A stretch of 64,000 bases of DNA from Burkholderiales bacterium RIFCSPLOWO2_12_FULL_61_40. GTDB taxonomy: Bacteria; Pseudomonadota; Gammaproteobacteria; Burkholderiales; Burkholderiaceae_C. The notes under the pieces are model-generated. The model did no database searches and was not told where the DNA came from. It worked only from the letters and a program-made list of their open reading frames with translations. Positions 10,713 through 60,227 of this stretch are shown here, one piece after another. Every line of letters starts with the position of its first letter. Position 1 is the stretch's first letter. The DNA lies in assembly GCA_001770935.1 (NCBI GenBank), contig MESI01000032.1, forward strand, positions 1-64,000, given 5' to 3'. The position numbers and the translations under genes are program-made.

Positions 10713-10743
10713 GCGCAAGCAGCTACCAAATCAATAGCAAAAG
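10697..10743 (-). repeat. Dispersed palindromic repeat, copy 2 (over the meaB stop)
   Basis: On the minus strand it reads TTGCTATTGATTTGGTAGC, then TGCTTGCGC, a spacer and AAGGGCTGCA. The plus-strand meaB stop codon (TAA, 10710-10712) is formed within the element, between its AGCCCTTGACGG end and its GCGC core. Confidence 0.75.
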
Positions 10744-12709: not shown

Positions 12710-14758
12710 ATGTTCACAAAAATACTGATCGCCAACCGTGGCGAAATCGCCTGCCGCGTCATCACCACCGCCAAAAAAATGGGCATCAAAACCGTGGCGG
12801 TGTATTCGGACGCTGACAAGGATGCACGCTTTGTGCTGCTGGCCGACGAGGCCGTCCACATTGGTGCGCCCCCCAGCCGGGAGAGTTACCTGGTGGGCGA
12901 AAAAATCATCGCCGCGTGCAAACAAACCGGCGCGCAAGCCCTGCACCCCGGCTACGGCTTTTTGAGCGAAAACGCCGAATTTGCCAAGCGGGTGGAAGAA
13001 GAAGGCATCGTCTTCATCGGCCCCAAGCACTATTCCATGGCGGCCATGGGCGACAAGATCGAGTCTAAAAAACTCGCGGGCAGCGCCGGTGTGAACTGCA
13101 TCCCCGGTGTCAACAGCGCCATCGAGTCCGCCGAAAAAGCCGTGGAAATTGCCAAGGACATTGGCTACCCCGTCATGATCAAGGCCAGCGCCGGTGGTGG
13201 TGGCAAAGGCCTGCGCGTGGCCTACAACGACAAGGAAGCATTTGAAGGTTTTACCAGCTGCACCAACGAAGCCCGCAACAGCTTTGGCGACGACCGCGTG
13301 TTTGTGGAAAAGTTTGTGGAAGAACCCCGCCACATCGAAATCCAGCTGATTGGCGACAGTTTTGGCAATGTGGTCTACCTGAACGAGCGCGAATGCTCGA
13401 TCCAGCGGCGCCACCAAAAAGTCATTGAAGAAGCGCCCAGCCCCTTCATCACCGACGCGACCCGCAAAGCCATGGGTGAGCAGGCGGTGCAGCTGGCCAA
13501 GGCGGTGAAATACCAAAGCGCCGGCACCGTGGAGTTTGTGGTCGGCAAGGACCAGAGCTTCTACTTCCTGGAAATGAACACCCGCCTGCAGGTGGAGCAC
13601 CCGGTGACCGAATGTATTACCGGACTCGATTTGGTGGAGCTGATGATTCGCGTCGCCGCCGGTGAAAAGCTGCCGCTGACGCAAGCTGATGTCAAACGCA
13701 ATGGCTGGGCCATGGAGTGCCGCATCAACGCCGAGGACCCGTTCCGGAACTTCCTGCCTTCGACCGGACGCTTGGTGCGCTTTGCACCACCCGAGCAGAC
13801 CATGTTCCAGGCCAATACCCAGGACTGGCTGGGTGTGCGCGTGGACACCGGCGTGCAGGACGGTGGCGAGATTCCGATGTACTACGACTCGATGATCGCC
13901 AAGCTCATCGTGCACGGCACTGACCGCAATGACGCGATTGCCAAGATGCGCGAGGCGCTCAATGGTTTTGTCATTCGCGGCATTAGCAGCAACATCCCGT
14001 TCCAGGCCGCGCTGCTGGCGCATCCCAAGTTTGTGTCAGGGGACTTCAACACCGGTTTCATTGCCGAGAACTATGCCAAGGGCTTTTCGGCCGAAGACGT
14101 ACCGCACGAAGACCCCTCCTTCCTGCTGGCGCTGGCCGCGTTTGTGCGGCGCAAGTCGCGTGAACGCGCTGCCGGCATCAGTGGACAGCTGCCCGGCTAC
14201 GCGGTGAATGCGGGCAAGGACTATGTGGTGGTGTCGCTGGGGGCCGATGGCAGCAACAGCTACACCCCGGTGCATGTCGACGAATTTGTAGGCGAAACCG
14301 GCTCTGCGCGCGTACGGATGGGCGCAAGCAGCTATGAAATTCGTAGCAACTCGCGCTTGAACGACATCTGCATCCACGGCACCGTGAACGGCCAGCCCTT
14401 CACCGCGCAGGTGGAGCGTGGCACGCCCAAGAACCCGCTGGCGCTGCGCTTGCAGCACAACGGCACCCGCATCGATGCGCTGGTGGTGTCGCCCCGCATG
14501 GCCGAGCTGCATGCGCTGATGCCCTTCAAGGCCGCGCCCGACATGAGCCGTTATGTGCTGTCCCCCATGCCGGGATTGCTGGTGGACGTGGCGGTGGTGC
14601 CCGGCCAGAAGGTGCAGGCCGGTGAACGGGTGGCCGTCATTGAAGCCATGAAGATGGAAAACGTGCTGTTTGCGGCAGCCGATGGTGTGGTCGGCAAGGT
14701 GCTGGCGGCCAAGGGTGAGAGCCTGACGGTGGACCAGCCGATTGTGGAGTTTGTTTGA
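12710..14758 (+). CDS. pccA: Propionyl-CoA carboxylase, alpha (biotin carboxylase plus biotin carrier) subunit
   Basis: Carboxylates biotin with ATP and bicarbonate and carries it to PccB. The 682 residues hold a biotin carboxylase (about 1-450: pre-ATP-grasp [20 protein letters not shown]-grasp glycine loop [13 protein letters not shown] starting at Lys158, then [14 protein letters not shown]), a linker/BT-like region that binds the beta subunit, and a C-terminal biotinyl domain (about 610-682) with AMKM, in which Lys648 is the biotin site. The stop overlaps the next ATG (TGATG), coupling translation to the VOC gene. A copy of the dispersed repeat lies in frame at 14321-14349 in the linker. 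Confidence 0.95.
14321..14349 (-). repeat. Dispersed palindromic repeat, copy 3 (inside pccA)
   Basis: GGCGCAAGCAGCTATGAAAT followed by TCGTAGCAA matches the core of the reverse-orientation copies (GCGCAAGCAGCTA, short spacer, TAGCAA). It is read in frame as [10 protein letters not shown] in the linker region of PccA. The outer AGCCCTT part is not preserved. Confidence 0.6.
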
Positions 14759-16978: not shown

Positions 16979-17668
16979 TTAGGAGCCACCGTTGTCAGGC
17001 GTGCGTTTGGCCCGTGCACGGGCCAGAGCAGCTTCGATGACGGCCCTCTTTTTGTCCAGAATGGCCGGGTCGGTGTGTTGGGAGTGTGCGGGCAGGTCTG
17101 CGAGCTTGGTTAGGGCCTTTTCTTCAAGCCTTTTCGCGCTCTCGCCCTTGTCCCTATTGCGCCGGTAGCTACTAAATTCATAGCGATTGCGGGCTTGTCT
17201 GGCCAGGACGGGTGACCAGGCATTCCACCCCGTCGCCTCCCCGCTGACGTTTTCCAGCAAGATGCAGTCCACCGGGCACACCGGAAGGCAGAGTTCGCAC
17301 CCGGTGCAATAGGTTTCAATGACCGTGTGCATACGTTTGTTGCTGCCCACGATGGCGTCGGTCGGGCAGGCTTTGATGCACAGGGTGCAACCGATGCACC
17401 AGTCTTCGTCGATGAAGGCCACGGTGCGCGAGCCCTCTTGTCCGTATGCCGGGTCCAAAGGCTTGGCAGGCTGTCCCAGGATCTGGGCCAGCCGGGCAGC
17501 GCCTTCTTCTCCACCAGGGGGGCATTGGTTGGTGTCCGCCGTGCCTTCCGCCATGGCGTGCGCATAGCCCGCACAATCCGGGTAAGCGCAGCGGGTGCAC
17601 TGGGTTTGTGGCAGGGCATCCAGCAGACGGGCGGCAAGCCCGCCGCCCTGGGTTGCCCCGTGGGTCAC
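16979..17668 (-). CDS. RnfB-like iron-sulfur protein (soluble form)
   Basis: A 229-residue protein with three expected Fe-S sites: an N-terminal RnfB-type cluster (CTRCAYPDCAGYAHA plus a later NQCPP cysteine) and two ferredoxin [4Fe-4S] motifs (CIGCTLCIKACPTD and CTGCELCLPVCPVDC). Unlike RnfB of Rnf/Rsx complexes it has no N-terminal membrane helix; the protein starts almost directly at the Cys region. No other rnf genes are present, so it is probably a stand-alone electron carrier. It overlaps the end of phaZ by 4 nt (ATGA), implying cotranscription. A dispersed-repeat core is read in frame near the C-terminus (NRYEFSSYRRN). Confidence 0.85.
   Translation of the reverse strand: MTHGATQGGGLAARLLDALPQTQCTRCAYPDCAGYAHAMAEGTADTNQCPPGGEEGAARLAQILGQPAKPLDPAYGQEGSRTVAFIDEDWCIGCTLCIKACPTDAIVGSNKRMHTVIETYCTGCELCLPVCPVDCILLENVSGEATGWNAWSPVLARQARNRYEFSSYRRNRDKGESAKRLEEKALTKLADLPAHSQHTDPAILDKKRAVIEAALARARAKRTPDNGGS
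17159..17184 (-). repeat. Dispersed palindromic repeat, copy 4 (inside the rnfB-like gene)
   Basis: GCGCCGGTAGCTACTAAATT followed by CATAGCGA has the core layout of the reverse-orientation copies, with the outer arm lost. It encodes part of NRYEFSSYRRN in the C-terminal extension of the iron-sulfur protein. Confidence 0.55.
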
Positions 17669-27331: not shown

Positions 27332-28606
27332 TCAGGTCACCGCGTCTTTTTGGTGGAACTGGGCTTGCTGCCATTCGCCAGTCTCCAGTACCTGGTGCAA
27401 CTGCTCCACCGCGTTCCACACGTCTTCAAAACCGATGTACAGCGGCGTGAAGCCAAAGCGCAGGATGTCCTGGTGGCCTTGGCCGTCCCCGGCGCGGTAG
27501 TCGCCAATCACGCCGCGTGCAATCAGCGCCTGCACAATGGCAAAGGCGCCCGATGCACGGGTCAGGCAAACCTGCGAGCCCCGTTGGCCATGCTCCCTGG
27601 GGGTTGCCAGGCCCAGGCCGTGGCCTGCACAGCGCTGCTCGACCAGTGCGATGAACAGGTCCGTCAATGCCAATGACTTGCTGCGCAAGGCTGCCATGCC
27701 GCCCAGGGGCTGGGCAGCCTCGAAGCCCTCCAGTCCACATTCCAGCAGGGACATGCTCACAATGGGCTGGGTACCGCACAGGTAGCGGGTGATGCCGACG
27801 GCAGGCTGGTAGTCGGGGGTGAACTCAAACGGCGTGGCATGGCCCCACCAGCCGGACAGGGGTTGCCAGAAGCGCTCGGCGTGTCGGGGGTTGACCCAGA
27901 CAAACGCTGGTGCGCCGGGCCCTCCGTTCAGGTATTTGTAGCCGCAGCCAATGGAGAAATCGGCCTGCGCAGCGATCAGGTCCACCGGCACTGCGCCGGC
28001 ACTGTGGGCCAGATCCCACACCACCAAGGCCCCGGCCGCATGGGCGGCGGCCGTGACGGCTGGCATGTCGTGCATGGCGCCGGTGCGGTAGTTCACATGG
28101 GTGAGCATCAAAATGGCTACTTCAGCGGTCAGGGACGCTGCAATCTCCATGGGCTCCACCAGTTTCAGGGTGTAGCCACGCTCCTTGCACAGACCCTCCG
28201 CAATATAGAGGTCGGTAGGAAAGTTGCTGCGCTCACTGACGATGATGCGGCGCTGCGGCGCGTCCTGGGCCGCCATGGACAGGGCCGCAGAGAGCACCTT
28301 GTACAGGTTGACAGAGGTGCTGTCGGTGGTGACGACCTGGTTTTGTCCTGCGCCAATGAGCGGCGCAATCCTGTTGCCCAGGCGCTGTGGCAGGCTGAAC
28401 CAGCCAGCGGTGTTCCAGGATCGGATCAGGCCTTGCCCCCACTCCTGGGTGATGACCTCAGCGGCCCGTGTGGCAGCGGCCTTGGGCATGGCGCCCAATG
28501 AATTGCCATCGAGGTAAATGACATCGGGGGGAATCGAAAACAAGTCGCGCAGGCTTTGGAGCGGGTCCGCAACGTCGCGTTGTCGGCAGTCTTGCAAAGT
28601 GATCAT
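27332..28606 (-). CDS. kynU: Kynureninase
   Basis: PLP enzyme that cleaves L-kynurenine to anthranilate and alanine in tryptophan catabolism. The 424-residue chain has [11 protein letters not shown] near the N-terminus, the cofactor region [25 protein letters not shown] (Asp/His contacts to PLP) and the Schiff-base lysine in [14 protein letters not shown]. The ATG at 28606 gives [11 protein letters not shown]; a longer in-frame start would run into the leader. The leader carries a 44-nt element (28636-28679) almost identical to one before tryptophanase at 58857. Other kyn genes (kynA, kynB) are not adjacent, so kynU stands alone here. Confidence 0.95.
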
Positions 28607-28635: not shown

Positions 28636-28679
28636 AAGTTAACACCGGTCAATTTGCCGTGGTGTCGGTTATTTCCAAC
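28636..28679 (-). promoter_or_regulatory. Conserved 44-nt leader element upstream of kynU
   Basis: On the minus strand it begins GTTGGAAATAACCGAC, continues ACCACGG, and ends CCGGTG-TTAACTT, finishing 29 nt before the kynU ATG. 39 of 44 positions match the element before tryptophanase (58781-58824), in the same orientation to the gene. Two small stems can be drawn: GTTGG/CCGAC, and CACC(AC)GG/CCGGTG around an 8-nt loop. It may be a shared operator or a structured leader. Confidence 0.7.
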
Positions 28680-28713
28680 GATCAGTGCAAATGCTGTCGA
28701 TCTTGCAGTGCGG

Positions 28714-29032: not shown

Positions 29033-30007
29033 TCAGCTCTGGCGGCCCAGCAGCAGGTATTCCATGAGTGCCTTTTGCACATGCATGCGGTTCTCGGCCT
29101 CTTCCCACACCACGGATTGCGGGCCATCAATGACTTCGGCTTCCACTTCTTCGCCGCGGTGGGCGGGCAGGCAGTGCATGAACAGGGCGTCCGGCGCGGC
29201 GACGGCCATCATGTCGCGGTTGACGCACCAGGCGGCAAAGGCGGTGCGGCGGGCTTCGTTCTCGGCCTCATACCCCATGCTGGTCCATACGTCGGTGGTG
29301 ACGAGGTCCGCGCCGCGGCAGGCATCCAGAGGGTTGCTATAAGTTTGATAGCTGCTTGCGCCCGTTCCTAAAGGGGCGGCGGCTGTTTTTTCATTGACTT
29401 CATAGCCGCTGGGGGTGCTCACGCGCAGGTGAAAACCCAGCAAGGCCGCAGCTTGCAGCCAGGTGTTGGCCATGTTGTTGCCGTCGCCCACCCAGGCCAC
29501 TGTTTTGCCGGCAATGGGGCCACGGTGCTCGATGTAGGTAAAGATGTCTGCCAGTATCTGGCAGGGGTGAAATTCATTGGTCAGGCCGTTGATGACGGGC
29601 ACGCGGGAGTTGGCGGCAAAGCGCTCCAGCTTGGTCTGCTCAAAGGTGCGGATCATCACGATGTCCGTCATGCGGCTGATGACCTTGGCACTGTCTTCAA
29701 TCGGCTCGGATCGGCCCAATTGGCTGTCGCCCGTGGTGAGGTGCACCACACTGCCACCCAGCTGGTACATGCCCGCCTCAAAACTCACCCGGGTGCGGGT
29801 GGACGCTTTCTCAAAAATCATGGCCAGGGTGCGGTCCACCAGCGGGTGGTGGCGCACATAGGTTTTGAATTTGTTTTTGATAAATGCGGCGCGCTCCAGC
29901 AGGTAGTGGTATTCCTCGGTGCTGAAATCGGCAAACTGCAGGTAGTGCCGAACGGGCGGCGCACCCTGGGGGACGGTGGTGGCGATGCCTTGGGGTGCGG
30001 TGCTCAT
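29033..30007 (-). CDS. argF: Ornithine carbamoyltransferase
   Basis: Forms citrulline from ornithine and carbamoyl phosphate in arginine biosynthesis. The 324 residues show the carbamoyl-phosphate loop STRTRVSFE, the NGLTNEFHPCQ region, the ornithine loop MHCLPAHRGEEV and the FMHCLPAHRG catalytic Cys. The ATG at 30007 overlaps the argD stop by ATGA, so translation is coupled. A copy of the dispersed repeat is read in frame at 29334-29381, giving about 18 extra residues (208-225, around APLGTGASSYQTYSN) in a variable surface stretch between the two domains' conserved motifs. The enzyme otherwise looks intact. Confidence 0.95.
   Translation of the reverse strand: MSTAPQGIATTVPQGAPPVRHYLQFADFSTEEYHYLLERAAFIKNKFKTYVRHHPLVDRTLAMIFEKASTRTRVSFEAGMYQLGGSVVHLTTGDSQLGRSEPIEDSAKVISRMTDIVMIRTFEQTKLERFAANSRVPVINGLTNEFHPCQILADIFTYIEHRGPIAGKTVAWVGDGNNMANTWLQAAALLGFHLRVSTPSGYEVNEKTAAAPLGTGASSYQTYSNPLDACRGADLVTTDVWTSMGYEAENEARRTAFAAWCVNRDMMAVAAPDALFMHCLPAHRGEEVEAEVIDGPQSVVWEEAENRMHVQKALMEYLLLGRQS
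29334..29381 (+). repeat. Dispersed palindromic repeat, copy 6 (inside argF)
   Basis: TTGCTATAAGTTTGATAGCT, then GCTTGCGC, a short spacer and AAAGGGGCGGCGG. Core and spacing match the full-length copies; the outer arm is altered from AAGGGCTAGAG. It is in frame in argF on the opposite strand. Confidence 0.75.
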
Positions 30008-48051: not shown

Positions 48052-48100
48052 CTCTAGCCCGCATGCAATAAGCGCAAGCAGCTATCAAAACAATAGCAAA
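48052..48100 (-). repeat. Dispersed palindromic repeat, copy 8 (intergenic)
   Basis: Reads CTCTAGCCCGCATGCAATAA, then GCGCAAGCAGCTATCAAAAC and AATAGCAAA. It is a full-length copy in reverse orientation, occupying most of the gap between ridA and the transglutaminase gene. Confidence 0.75.
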
Positions 48101-49087
48101 TCACCTCTGAGACTGGCCGTGGTCCTGGAATGGATGGATGCCAGAGCCTGGAGTTGACGCTTGCGATGGCTGCAATTGGGGTCCCGTATTGTCGCCGCCC
48201 GCAGCCTCCACCGTGACACCAACCTGCAAGGTGTGGCGGGCGCCCCCGTGGATGACACCCCGCAAAGGGGAGACGTCGCCAAAATCACGCCCCACGGCCA
48301 CCGTCACATAGTCCTCGCCCGGAGCATGCCAACCCCAACGGTTGTTGGTGGGGTCAAAGTCGCACCAGCGCGCGCCTGCGGGCAAATCGGCCACATACAC
48401 ACTGACCCACGCGTGTGAGGCGTCGCTGCCTACCAGCTTGGCGGTGCCGGGAGCGGGAGCTGTCAGCAGGTAGCCGCTGACGTAGCGTGCGGGCAGTCCC
48501 ATGGTGCGCAGGCAGGCCAGCATGATGTGGGCAAAATCCTGGCACACGCCTTTGCGTTGCGCCAGCGCCTGCAGGGCGGGGGTGTTGATCTGGGTGCTCT
48601 GGCTTTCATAGACAAAGTCCGAGTGGATGCGCTGCATCAGATGGAGGGCCACATCCAGCACAGAGGCGCCCGAGCCCAAACTGGGCCGGGCATAGGCGGC
48701 AAAGTCGGCATGGTGCGGCACAAACGGCGAAGCAAATACAAATTCGGTGGCGGCGTCGAATGTCCCATGGGCACGGTAGCGCATGCGCTCCTGCACCTGC
48801 TCCCATGGCAGCGTGCTGGTGGGGGTGCCATGTGCTTGGGTGCTGACCAGACTGCGCGCCACTACGGAGAGGTCTTCATGGGGCGCCTGCAAGGAAAAGT
48901 AGCAACGCACATTGCCGTACACATCGGGCACCTCACGCAGTTGGGCGGGCTGCGGGTGGACGCTGAGCGTGTGGCTGAGCAGGTGTTGCGCGGCATGGGT
49001 GCGGGGGCGCAGGTAGGCCATGTGCTGCGCGGTTTCGACCACCGGTTGGTAGTGGTAGCGGGTTTCGTGGATGACTTGCAGCCGCAT
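48101..49087 (-). CDS. Transglutaminase-like cysteine protease
   Basis: A 328-residue protein with an N-terminal beta domain (VIHETRYHYQPVVETAQHMA) and a transglutaminase core with the catalytic triad Cys182 (RKGVCQDFAHIML), His225 (SDASHAWVSVYV) and Asp245 (WCDFDPTNN). It is coupled (TGATG) to the upstream ATP-grasp/alpha-E gene, a conserved pairing attributed in the comparative literature to a peptide-ligation and cleavage system. Some genomes carry an Anbu proteasome-like gene with it; none is visible here. The ATG at 49087 is the only start consistent with the domain. The C-terminal 40 residues are low-complexity. Confidence 0.9.
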   Translation of the reverse strand: MRLQVIHETRYHYQPVVETAQHMAYLRPRTHAAQHLLSHTLSVHPQPAQLREVPDVYGNVRCYFSLQAPHEDLSVVARSLVSTQAHGTPTSTLPWEQVQERMRYRAHGTFDAATEFVFASPFVPHHADFAAYARPSLGSGASVLDVALHLMQRIHSDFVYESQSTQINTPALQALAQRKGVCQDFAHIMLACLRTMGLPARYVSGYLLTAPAPGTAKLVGSDASHAWVSVYVADLPAGARWCDFDPTNNRWGWHAPGEDYVTVAVGRDFGDVSPLRGVIHGGARHTLQVGVTVEAAGGDNTGPQLQPSQASTPGSGIHPFQDHGQSQR

Positions 49088-56171: not shown

Positions 56172-58730
56172 ATGTACACGGTGTTCAAGCTCCCTGTTGG
56201 TCTGGCCCGAACCGGCTTCGTTGCCTTGCTCGGCACGGTGCTGGGTGCGGCTTTGCAGCTGCAGCAAGAAGCGCTTTGGCAGGGAGTATTTTATGCATCA
56301 TTTGTGCTTCTAGCCCTTGTAGGATATGCGCAAGCAGCTACTAAAAATATAGCAAAAGTGTGGCCGGTCGCGGGCGTGGTGCTGTGCACGGCCCTGCTGG
56401 GCTTTGGCGCCACAGGGCTGCGCGCTGCCTTGTTTGCGGCGCACGCACTGAACCCGGCGCTGGAAGGGCGCGATGTACTGGTCACGGGTGTCGTCACCGA
56501 TATGCCACAACGCAGCGCTGCAGGCTTGCGGTTTCGCATGGCAGTGGAGGCCGCCACCCTGGACGGCCAAGTTGCCATCGTGCCGCCCCGCATGGATGTG
56601 GGGTGGTACGGTGGCGTTTACCCGACAGGGACCGAGTTGGCCGGCCTGCAACGCCAGCCCGGCGAAGTCCAGGCCGGTGAGCGTTGGCAAATGACCTTGC
56701 GCCTGAAAGCACCCCACGGCAACAGCAACCCCCATGGTTTTGATTACGAGTTGTGGATGTGGGAGCAGGGCGTGCAGGCCAGCGCCTATGTGCGCGTCGG
56801 CCCGCACGACCCAACGCCCCAGCGTCTGGCGCAAACCTGGCGGCACCCGGTGGCGCTGGCCCGCCAGACGGTGCGGGAACGCATCTACACCCGGGTGAAA
56901 GACCGGCAACTGGCGGGCATGATCGCCGCACTGGTGGTGGGCGACCAAGGCGCCATTGAGCGTGCGGACTGGGAGGTGTTCCGTGCCACCGGCGTGGCGC
57001 ACCTGGTCAGCATTTCAGGTTTGCACATCACCATGTTCGCCTGGGGTGCGGCGCTGCTGGTGGGCTGGCTGTGGCGGCGCTCCATGCGCCTGTGCCTGGC
57101 GCTGCCCGCGCCCACTGCGGCGCTGGTGGGCGGCGTGGCGCTGGCGGCGGCCTACGCCCTGTTTTCCGGTTGGGGCGTGCCCGCGCAGCGCACCTGTGTG
57201 ATGCTGGCGACCGTGGCGCTCTTGCGCCTGGCGGGTGTGCGCTGGCCCTGGCCGCAGGTGTGGATGCTGGCCTGTGCGGTGGTGGTGGCCTTTGACCCGT
57301 GGGCCTTGCTGCAGCCGGGGTTCTGGTTGAGTTTTGTCGCGGTGGGGGTGTTGTTTGCTACCGATTTGGGCTCGGTCCGAGAGCACACCTTGCGCGCCGC
57401 CGGGCCGCCCCAAGGCGCGAGGGCCCCCCTGGGGGGCAGTGCAGTACACGAAGTGACAAACGTGGGGGCTACTTTCATGAGCGCCGCCGGGCCGCCCCAT
57501 GGCGCGAGGGCCCCCCTGGGGGGCAGCGTAGCACGCGCAGCGACCAGCGTGGGGGCTATGTTCCGGGAGCAGTGGGTGATTACCGTGGCGCTTACGCCTT
57601 TGACATTGCTGCTGTTCGGGCAGGTCTCGGTCGTCGGCCTGGTGGCCAACGCGCTGGCCATTCCCTGGGTGACCCTGGTGATCACGCCGCTGGCCATGCT
57701 GGGCGTGTTGCTGCCTGTGGTGTGGGATGGGGCGGCCGGGGCCATTGGGCTGCTGCTGGTGTGGCTGCAGTGGCTGGCCTCATTTCCCTGGGCATCGGTC
57801 TCGGTGGCCATGCCACCGCTGTGGGCTGGCATGGCAGGCGCCTTGGGTGGGGTGGTGCTGGTGTTTCCCTGGTCCTGGCGCATGCGCATTCTGGGGGTAC
57901 CTTTGCTGCTGCCGGTCTTGCTGTGGCAGGCGCCCAGCCCGCCGCCGGGGCAGTTTGAGTTGCTGGCGGCCGACATCGGCCAAGGCAATGCCGTGCTGGT
58001 GCGCACCGCCCACCACGCCCTGCTGTTTGACGCCGGGCCGCGCTACAGCCTGGAAAGTGATGCCGGGCACCGGGTGCTGGTGCCCCTGCTGCAGGCCCTG
58101 CACACCCGGCTGGACCGGGTGGTTTTGAGCCACCGCGATACTGACCATGTGGGCGGTGCACCCGCCGTGCTGGCCATGCAGCCGCAGGCTGATGTGTTCA
58201 GCTCCATCGAGGCGGAGCATGCGCTGCAAGCCCTGCGCCCGGCGCAGCGCTGTGTGGCCGGGCAGCACTGGGATTGGGATGGTGTGGCCTTTGACGTGCT
58301 GCACCCGATGGAGAAGGACTACGCCAGTAAGTCCAAACCGAACGCCCTGAGTTGTACTGTGCGCATTTCCAACGGCACCCAGACCGCTTTGCTGGCAGGT
58401 GATATCGAAAAGGAGCAGGAGGCACGCCTGGTGGCGGATGGGGCGGCTATCCGGGCGGACGTGCTGCTGGTGCCGCACCATGGCAGCAAAACCTCCAGCA
58501 GCGCTGCGTTTTTAGATGCGGTACAGCCACAGATTGCACTGGTGCAGTCGGGTTACCGCAACCGCTTTGGCCATCCGGTGTCGGCTGTTTTGGCGCGTTA
58601 TACCGAGCGTGGTATTCGCGTGGTCGATTCGCCCCATTGTGGAGCGGCGACATGGCAATCCAGCCAGCCCGAGGCGGTGCAATGCCAGCGGGAACTGGGG
58701 CTGCGCTACTGGCACCACCACGCACCCTGA
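56172..58730 (+). CDS. comEC: DNA uptake channel ComEC/Rec2
   Basis: Inner-membrane channel for transforming DNA. The 852 residues have an N-terminal DUF4131 region, a polytopic Competence domain (about 220-540, with VSISGLHITMFAWGAALLVG and SGWGVPAQRTCVMLA), and a C-terminal metallo-beta-lactamase-like domain with SHRDTDHVGG (about 650 on) and VPHHGSKTSSS. Two in-frame repeats are present: a dispersed-repeat copy at residues ~47-62 and a duplicated 87-bp unit at ~408-465 in a loop between membrane helices. Both keep the frame open, so the gene looks functional. Other competence genes are not in the window. Confidence 0.93.
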   Translation: MYTVFKLPVGLARTGFVALLGTVLGAALQLQQEALWQGVFYASFVLLALVGYAQAATKNIAKVWPVAGVVLCTALLGFGATGLRAALFAAHALNPALEGRDVLVTGVVTDMPQRSAAGLRFRMAVEAATLDGQVAIVPPRMDVGWYGGVYPTGTELAGLQRQPGEVQAGERWQMTLRLKAPHGNSNPHGFDYELWMWEQGVQASAYVRVGPHDPTPQRLAQTWRHPVALARQTVRERIYTRVKDRQLAGMIAALVVGDQGAIERADWEVFRATGVAHLVSISGLHITMFAWGAALLVGWLWRRSMRLCLALPAPTAALVGGVALAAAYALFSGWGVPAQRTCVMLATVALLRLAGVRWPWPQVWMLACAVVVAFDPWALLQPGFWLSFVAVGVLFATDLGSVREHTLRAAGPPQGARAPLGGSAVHEVTNVGATFMSAAGPPHGARAPLGGSVARAATSVGAMFREQWVITVALTPLTLLLFGQVSVVGLVANALAIPWVTLVITPLAMLGVLLPVVWDGAAGAIGLLLVWLQWLASFPWASVSVAMPPLWAGMAGALGGVVLVFPWSWRMRILGVPLLLPVLLWQAPSPPPGQFELLAADIGQGNAVLVRTAHHALLFDAGPRYSLESDAGHRVLVPLLQALHTRLDRVVLSHRDTDHVGGAPAVLAMQPQADVFSSIEAEHALQALRPAQRCVAGQHWDWDGVAFDVLHPMEKDYASKSKPNALSCTVRISNGTQTALLAGDIEKEQEARLVADGAAIRADVLLVPHHGSKTSSSAAFLDAVQPQIALVQSGYRNRFGHPVSAVLARYTERGIRVVDSPHCGAATWQSSQPEAVQCQRELGLRYWHHHAP
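56310..56358 (-). repeat. Dispersed palindromic repeat, copy 9 (inside comEC)
   Basis: CTAGCCCTTGTAGGATATGC, then GCAAGCAGCTACTAAAAATA and TAGCAAAAG: a full-length copy in reverse orientation, best match to copy 1 (145-191). It is translated in frame as LALVGYAQAATKNIAK inside a hydrophobic stretch of ComEC. Confidence 0.8.
57394..57567 (+). repeat. Tandem 87-bp in-frame duplication in comEC
   Basis: Two adjacent units (57394-57480 and 57481-57567) begin GCGCCGCCGGGCCGCCCCA and share GGCGCGAGGGCCCCCCTGGG and later CGTGGGGGCTA. Each contains the palindrome GCCCCCCTGGGGGGC. The period is 29 codons, so the frame is kept; the products (AAGPPQGARAPLGGSA and AAGPPHGARAPLGGSV) form a Gly/Pro/Ala-rich loop. 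Confidence 0.88.
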
Positions 58731-58780
58731 AAGGCAGCGTTGCAACCCGAAGAGGACGATTCGACGACTTTTTAGCCGGT

Positions 58781-58824
58781 GTTGGAAATAACCGACACCA
58801 CGGTATTTTGTCCGGTGATAACTT
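58781..58824 (+). promoter_or_regulatory. Conserved 44-nt leader element upstream of tryptophanase
   Basis: Begins GTTGGAAATAACCGAC, continues ACCACGG, and ends CCGGTG-ATAACTT, 32 nt before the ATG. 39 of 44 positions match the kynU element (28636-28679). Four of the five differences fall in the 8-nt stretch between CACCACGG and CCGGTG, the predicted loop of the second stem. No clear Shine-Dalgarno lies between element and start. Confidence 0.7.
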
Positions 58825-58856: not shown

Positions 58857-60227
58857 ATGCCAAAAACCCTGATTGAACCCTTCCGCATCAAGAGCATCGA
58901 ACCCATCCGCATGACCTCGCGCGAAGAGCGCGTGCAACTGCTGGAGACCGCCAAACTCAACGTTTTCAAACTGCGCGCAGAAGACGTGCTGATCGACTGG
59001 CTGACCGACTCCGGCACCGGCGCCATGTCCTCCAAGCAATGGGGCGCCATCATGGAAGGCGACGAGAGCTACGCCGGAGCGCGCAGCTTCTACCGCCTGG
59101 AAGCCGTCATTCAAGACATCACCGGCATGCAGTATTTTGTGCCCACGCACCAAGGCCGTGCCGCGGAAAAAGTGCTGTTCACCGCCGTGTGCAAAAAAGG
59201 CGATGTGGTGCCCAACAACTGCCACTTCGACACCACCCGCGCCAACCTGGAGTACCTGGGCATTGAGGCGCTGGACCTGGTCATTGCCGAAGGCCTGCAG
59301 CCCGCGCTGATCTATCCCTTCAAGGGCAATATCGATCTGGCGCGGGTTGAGGCTTTGCTGAAGGAGCAGGGCGACCGTATCCCCTTTGGCATGCTCACGG
59401 TGACCAACAACACCGGGGGCGGACAACCGGTGTCCATGGCCAATATCCGCGGCTACGCGGCGCTGCTGAAGAAATTTGGCAAGCCCTTCATTCTGGACGT
59501 GTGCCGCTTTGCCGAAAACGCCATGTTCATCAAGATGCGCGAACCCGGCTACGAGAACACCTCCATCAAGGACATCGTCAAGGAAATGTTCTCCTACTGC
59601 GACGGCTGCACCATGAGCGCCAAGAAAGACGGCATGGTCAACATCGGCGGCTTCATCGTCTTGCGCAGCGAAGAGTGGATGGACGCGGTGCGCAATGTGC
59701 TGATCATGACCGAAGGCTTCCCCACCTACGGCGGCCTGGCCGGGCGCGACCTGGAAGCGCTGGCCGTGGGCCTGGTGGAAGGCATGGACGAAGACTACCT
59801 GCGCTACCGCCTGCGCACCGCCGAATACCTGGGCGAACGGCTGGAGGCCTCGGGTATCGGCTTTGTCAAACCCACGGGCGGCCACGCGGTCTACATCGAC
59901 GCCAAAACGGTGTTGCCAAACATGCCCGTGGAACACTACCCGGCCTGGGCCTTGTGCAATGCCCTGTACCTGGAAGGCGGCATCCGTGGGGTGGAAATCG
60001 GCTCAGTCATGTTTGGCAAACGCCTGGCCGACGGCACCGAGACTTACCACAGCATGGAACTGGTGCGCCTGGCCTTCCCACGGCGTATGTACACCCAAAG
60101 CCACTTTGACTACGCGGCGGAAGTGATCGACGAAGTGAAGCAAAAAGCCGCCAGCATCCGGGGTGTGAAGATCACCAAACAGCCGCAGTACCTGCGGCAT
60201 TTCACTTGTGAGTGTGCTTGGGTTTAA
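58857..60227 (+). CDS. tnaA: Tryptophanase (tryptophan indole-lyase)
   Basis: PLP beta-eliminating lyase that converts tryptophan to indole, pyruvate and ammonia. The 456 residues align over their length with TnaA and tyrosine phenol-lyase (TPL): PTHQGRAAEKVL, GGGQPVSMAN and MSAKKDGMVNIGGF with the Schiff-base Lys257. Two discriminating positions favour tryptophanase: FDTT has Asp125 (Asp137 in E. coli TnaA, Thr124 in TPL), and RGVEIGS has Ile where TPL has the substrate-binding Arg381. Overall similarity is nevertheless closer to TPL in several stretches, so substrate testing matters. It has the shared leader element; no tnaB or tnaC is adjacent. Confidence 0.85.
   Translation: MPKTLIEPFRIKSIEPIRMTSREERVQLLETAKLNVFKLRAEDVLIDWLTDSGTGAMSSKQWGAIMEGDESYAGARSFYRLEAVIQDITGMQYFVPTHQGRAAEKVLFTAVCKKGDVVPNNCHFDTTRANLEYLGIEALDLVIAEGLQPALIYPFKGNIDLARVEALLKEQGDRIPFGMLTVTNNTGGGQPVSMANIRGYAALLKKFGKPFILDVCRFAENAMFIKMREPGYENTSIKDIVKEMFSYCDGCTMSAKKDGMVNIGGFIVLRSEEWMDAVRNVLIMTEGFPTYGGLAGRDLEALAVGLVEGMDEDYLRYRLRTAEYLGERLEASGIGFVKPTGGHAVYIDAKTVLPNMPVEHYPAWALCNALYLEGGIRGVEIGSVMFGKRLADGTETYHSMELVRLAFPRRMYTQSHFDYAAEVIDEVKQKAASIRGVKITKQPQYLRHFTCECAWV

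Follow-up and report, generated by a model that had tools for sequence, protein, structure and literature searches.

A candidate operator–promoter element common to kynurenine and tryptophanase genes in a large bacterial family

The Escherichia coli tnaA gene is controlled through the tnaC leader-peptide mechanism, which operates in RNA. Two further systems provide points of reference for the present work: TyrR boxes have the spacing TGT-N12-ACA, and CRP bound at −41.5 defines a class II activator-dependent promoter. For the kyn genes, passages of two reports describe control by the Lrp/AsnC regulator KynR in Pseudomonas aeruginosa and Cupriavidus necator (PMC8707732, PMC7057948), and the relevant part of a third source likewise treats KynR as an Lrp/AsnC regulator of these genes (PMC12451312). 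Predicted regulons, in the section of PMC5343134 that concerns these pathways, place the tdo–kyn genes of Shewanellaceae under TyrR and tnaAB of Vibrionales under TrpR. In the open-licence literature, we found no report of the element described below or of joint kyn–tna control in Comamonadaceae.

Here we analyse a 64,000-nucleotide (nt) stretch of DNA (hereafter referred to as the window) from Burkholderiales bacterium RIFCSPLOWO2_12_FULL_61_40, in which near-identical 44-nt elements precede the tryptophanase gene tnaA and the kynureninase gene kynU. The system resembles the KynR regulon in that the same kyn genes are concerned and kynR adjoins kyn genes in some relatives. It differs in that KynR-linked loci among these relatives lack an intact element, no KynR was found in the genome of the window, and tnaA carries the same promoter as the kyn genes. 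In the TyrR and TrpR systems, as in the arrangement that we propose, one aromatic amino acid regulator reaches kyn or tna genes. The element also has the spacing of a TyrR box; however, its half-site is TGTTGG, and the TyrR-type domain model TIGR04381, which matches in an E. coli control, has no match in the genome of the window. The predicted layout is like that of CRP-dependent class II promoters, with a site near −42.5, no −35 hexamer and AT-rich DNA near −60 (positions that are inferred here), whereas the site itself is an 18-bp TGTTGG-N6-CCGACA sequence. As in the tnaC system, tnaA would be under tryptophan-related control, but tnaC acts in RNA, whereas the element lies upstream of the predicted transcription start.

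The element and its genes in the window

The element before tnaA (58857–60227, + strand) occupies positions 58781–58824 (+) and comprises an operator, a spacer and a −10-like hexamer; the element before kynU (27332–28606, −) occupies positions 28636–28679 (−). Both were located by sequence and pattern match, and the coordinates agree with those of the earlier note, from which this analysis started. On recounting, the two copies are identical at 39 of 44 positions, including all of the first 23, and they lie 32 nt from the tnaA start codon (ATG 58857) and 29 nt from that of kynU (ATG 28606), again as that note had reported. A pattern joining the two copies matches the window twice and is absent from 100 dinucleotide-preserving shuffles, and a repeat search of the window recovered the same pair independently (44 nt, 89%). 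The genome of the window (G000, a draft of 93% completeness) holds only these two full copies; its 20-nt core, at up to three mismatches, has one further match there, which lacks the remainder of the element. An open reading frame (ORF) beginning at a GTG codon runs into the kynU element, but the kynU start at ATG 28606 agrees with the starts in relatives.

The identities that had been assigned to the two genes were borne out. KynU exceeds the cut-off of the kynureninase model TIGR01814 (321 bits versus 246). TnaA exceeds the cut-off of the tryptophanase subfamily model NF009709 and falls under those of both equivalog models (tryptophanase, 491.7; tyrosine phenol-lyase, 514.7), so that the equivalog scores give no decision between these two enzymes. 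Five residues separate tryptophanase from tyrosine phenol-lyase in the portion of PMC5805759 that treats them, and in our alignments, with the residues placed by eye, all five are of the tryptophanase type in TnaA. In the same draft genome, the models for tryptophan 2,3-dioxygenase (kynA) and KynB-type formamidase have no match. Thus, kynU appears there without its usual partners, and kynurenine would need an outside source or another enzyme.

The window also contains other repeats. An intergenic-type repeat (GCGCAAGCAGCTAT...ATAGCAA) occurs in one orientation at 10713–10743, 14322–14352, 17159–17189, 48072–48102 and 56328–56358, with at least one inverted copy within 29333–29388. An 86-nt GC-rich tandem unit (57391–57563, 86% alike) lies inside a long ORF (56172–58730) that we take to be a comEC-type gene; by eye, a GC-rich repeat resembling this unit also lies between the element and kynB at two loci in relatives (L056 and L084).

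Reach and gene context of the element

In the genus sample, tnaA is present in 17 of 100 genomes, and all 18 tnaA genes with a start present carry the element 76–78 nt before the ATG, in a weaker form in G023; a tnaA fragment without a start (L217) was excluded from this count. Promoter sharing between kyn and tna genes is therefore a rule in the genus sample and not an accident of one genome. Five tnaA-bearing genomes (G493, G061, G492, G015 and G031) have no element at kynU. At L044 and L045, kynU and kynA lie in another operon without the element, preceded by what are presumably ABC-transporter and acyl-CoA dehydrogenase genes.

The 20-nt core, at up to three mismatches, is present in 64 of 149 relatives, and a reversed control of the same core also matches often, so the short core alone proves little. 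Among 32 core loci, 19 have the whole element, before kynU (10), tnaA (8) or kynB (1), and 13 are unrelated. An order-wide search found the core in 51 of 399 genomes; 30 of these loci comprise 8 before kynB or kynU, 4 within the kynU coding region and 18 elsewhere. The earlier note had proposed that many hits away from tryptophan genes would mark the element as a generic repeat. When this search was run, unrelated matches arose only for the short core (13 of 32 loci; 22 of 30 order-wide), mostly in coding sequence, and all without the remainder of the element. In 17 of a further 20 regions the site precedes kyn or tna genes; the three exceptions are L155, L156 and L159.

We then represented the whole element as a 48-position, sequence-only profile built from 61 promoters, all of kyn or tna genes. 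At E ≤ 0.01, a threshold that should let through a few chance matches, this profile has matches in 208 of 397 family genomes, which represent 78 of 126 genera. Among the matches listed, all 49 contexts examined lie before kynB, kynU or tnaA. These were 30 loci from the search (kynB, 19; kynU, 6; tnaA, 5) and 19 chosen loci (kynB, 13; tnaA, 4; kynU, 2), the latter taking in the nine other genomes that have multiple matches, together with some matches of low rank. Ten genomes have at least two profile matches, and the second site was placed, among the matches listed, in the genome of the window, G647 and G776. In G647 and G776, the second copy lies ahead of an aromatic amino acid transaminase gene situated between the kynB and kynA genes (L278, 7624; L279, 7340), a position at which kynU was not found in either locus; the protein encoded at L278 scores 575 bits against NF006719.

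A scan of named genomes yielded 80 kynureninase loci, with labels mostly of Comamonadaceae genera. By a fixed rule, which scores the first 23 positions at no more than 400 nt from the first kyn gene, the element is present at 60 of these loci and at none of the other 20. In 53 of the 60 element-bearing loci kynB lies upstream of kynU, usually with kynA next, and in one genome (L157) the element precedes kynA, as identified by model TIGR03036. Beyond the family, the full element stands before kynB in two genomes (L154; L126/L171). The proposal of a tryptophan-catabolism operator is strongly supported by this family-wide placement of the full element before kynB, kynU, kynA or tnaA, and we regard the element, as judged from genomic sequence, as a real operator–promoter of tryptophan breakdown that is common across the family.

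Promoter anatomy and proposed mechanism

The conserved positions read TGTTGG-N6-CCGACA-CCAC, followed by a partly T-rich spacer and GGTGnTAMCTT. In the window, the operators, which are conserved in relatives, are TGTTGGAAATAACCGACA before tnaA (58780–58797, +) and CGTTGGAAATAACCGACA before kynU (28663–28680, −). To describe the geometry, we used 66 promoters, excluding 12 of 78 sites with no clear −10 or more than one mismatch. The six outer position pairs of the palindrome are complementary in 56, 66, 66, 1, 66 and 62 of the 66 promoters, with one T–G mismatch in 65, and the right half together with CCAC is conserved further than the left half. This mismatch and the unequal conservation make a plain symmetric dimer site uncertain.

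The distance from the palindrome to the hexamer is nearly constant: TAMCTT starts 39 positions past the palindrome start in 61 of 66 promoters, 40 in three and 38 in two, and TG precedes the hexamer in 58, forming an extended −10. Before tnaA, the predicted −10-like hexamer is TAACTT at 58819–58824 (+), preceded by TGA and located at the offset found in the 61 promoters; before kynU, promoter comparison predicts TAACTT at 28636–28641 (−), preceded by TGT. No −35 hexamer was found: at spacings of 15–19, the best match to TTGACA reaches 2/6 in 53 and 3/6 in 13 of the 66 promoters, which is below the level in shuffled versions of that stretch. In 62 promoters, AT content is highest between 11 and 7 positions ahead of the palindrome, which corresponds to about −62 to −58. 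When the window is set against the family profile, a T-tract (58769–58773, +) before tnaA falls at the place of this T-rich peak, about −60, as does an ATTT (28689–28692, −) before kynU, which is weak alone. Assuming a transcription start 7 nt past the hexamer, the palindrome would be centred at −42.5. Class II activator-dependent promoters are laid out in this way, with a site near −42.5, no −35 hexamer and AT-rich DNA near −60.

In 41 of 42 kynB promoters with a clear −10, the start codon lies 6–9 nt past it, on the basis of an in-frame ATG upstream of the first-called start in two of the 41. An auxiliary palindrome, TTTAGNNCTRAA (up to two mismatches), accompanies 25 of 75 promoters (for example, L122, L080 and L014), about 29–31 bp upstream from the centre of the operator; it was found at neither of the two promoters in the window and is not counted as part of the core.

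We consider it likely that the element is a regulated promoter with an activator dimer and an extended −10, which would place both tryptophan routes under one regulator. An activator dimer would bind TGTTGG-N6-CCGACA, centred about 42.5 bp before the transcription start, and RNA polymerase would use the extended −10 (TGnTAMCTT) with no −35 hexamer; its alpha subunits, placed on the T-rich DNA near −60, would probably assist. The same promoter is found ahead of the first gene of the kynurenine operon, be it kynB, kynU or kynA, and ahead of tryptophanase, so that one regulator would switch on both routes. Weighing against this reading, 20 of the 80 named loci and 7 of 20 kynU loci of genus genomes lacking KynR have no element.

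The same palindrome could instead be a repressor operator that covers the promoter, with the repressor leaving in the presence of tryptophan or a product. A palindrome-like site over the −35 region suits a repressor equally well, but these promoters offer a repressor no −35 hexamer to occlude, keep an almost constant distance to the −10 and have T-rich DNA at the place where alpha subunits bind in activated promoters. We therefore hold repression to be unlikely, and suggest that the regulator is an activator.

The regulator, its signal and other readings

KynR is the obvious candidate from the described systems. In the genus sample, KynR (72–73% identical) occurs in 12 of 100 genomes, in each case adjoining kynU by coordinates. 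Counted in the best 30 of 83 genomes, the element is present at 0 of 10 kynU loci of KynR-bearing genomes versus 13 of 20 others. Among the 80 named loci, KynR lies near the kyn genes in nine, of which seven have no site and two have a degenerate site without the usual −10; the mutual avoidance of element and linked KynR has a Fisher P value of 6 × 10⁻⁴, uncorrected for relatedness. Comparison between genomes shows the conservation, fixed geometry and gene context of the element, as well as its separation from KynR. Given this separation, and with no KynR ortholog found in the genome of the window, the site is probably read by a protein other than KynR.

Alternatively, the site could be read by KynR, or by a different Lrp/AsnC regulator, with its gene at another place in the genome. 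The genome of the window has 11 Lrp/AsnC matches, and an AsnC group 46–53% identical to KynR occurs in 14 genomes, all of them element-bearing, and in none of the 12 KynR genomes. However, no KynR ortholog was found in the 93% complete draft (best match, at most 46% identity), and element and linked KynR avoid each other. Moreover, two element-bearing genomes of 100% completeness (G032 and G077) have no match at the strength of the AsnC group. In the main type of this group, 9 of 11 copies (12 regions) adjoin what we take to be a methionine gamma-lyase gene, which points to a probable role in methionine breakdown; given this neighbour and the absence from G032 and G077, we take the link between the AsnC group and the element to be incidental. 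Overall, a reader of the KynR or Lrp/AsnC type seems improbable. The Lrp/AsnC genes of the genome of the window were considered as readers and set aside, none being a KynR ortholog.

Apart from linked KynR, no regulator gene recurs among the neighbours of the kyn genes and tnaA. Single cases are what we assume to be a GntR gene before kynU (L055), LysR-like genes (L123, L285 and, after kynA, L044) and a Crp/Fnr-like gene a few genes from tnaA (L170 and L173). A looser palindrome (up to two mismatches), searched in 26 genomes, did not recur before a regulator gene in 20 regions among the matches listed; its 25 matches, counted strand-wise, fall inside genes in 17 cases and between genes called by a crude gene caller in 8, one of the latter being the known kynB site. 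With no regulator gene found repeatedly next to the targets, the promoter seems to be read by an unlinked regulator, with its gene presumably elsewhere in the genome.

The earlier note had also offered a structured leader, that is, a riboswitch or attenuator common to both transcripts. CACC at columns 17–20 could pair with GGTG at columns 35–38 (90.1% of cells pair), but we found no compensatory changes in the predicted helix or in CACC/GGTG, and comparison of the window with Rfam at gathering scores returned a tRNA only. The element, furthermore, ends beside the kynB start codon: with the ATG 6–9 nt past the −10, transcription would start on or next to the ATG, so that the element would not be part of the RNA. 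With the predicted transcription start downstream of the element, this proposal fell away as very improbable, and the variable 8-nt 'loop' described in that note is instead the promoter spacer. A generic repeat, or a recent copy of one sequence, would account for near-identical copies within one genome, but with two full copies only in that genome and one gene context over the family we give this reading practically no weight.

Returning to the activated promoter, its distribution bears on the signal. Four genomes (G008, G012, G043 and G052) have the element with tnaA and no kynU match, which argues against kynurenine alone as the signal, and others, including G048 and G062, have the element before kynU and no tnaA match, which argues against indole. 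Tryptophan is the simplest common signal because it feeds both routes, and we infer that it is the signal, the first four genomes being drafts of 66–95% completeness. A broader proposal, which we judge to be evenly poised between right and wrong, is that an undescribed tryptophan-sensing activator, unlinked to its targets, has replaced KynR over much of the family. Through a single stereotyped promoter, which is nearly leaderless at kynB, this activator would drive the kynurenine and indole routes and, in at least two genomes, an aromatic aminotransferase gene located where kynU is missing.

The conserved site offers a direct handle for finding the regulator, and a low-copy tryptophan-responsive promoter would be a candidate sensor part. 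The occurrence of KynR-linked and element-bearing loci in one genus provides a natural case of regulator replacement. Collectively, the kynurenine and indole routes of tryptophan breakdown appear to be under one control signal in a large bacterial family.
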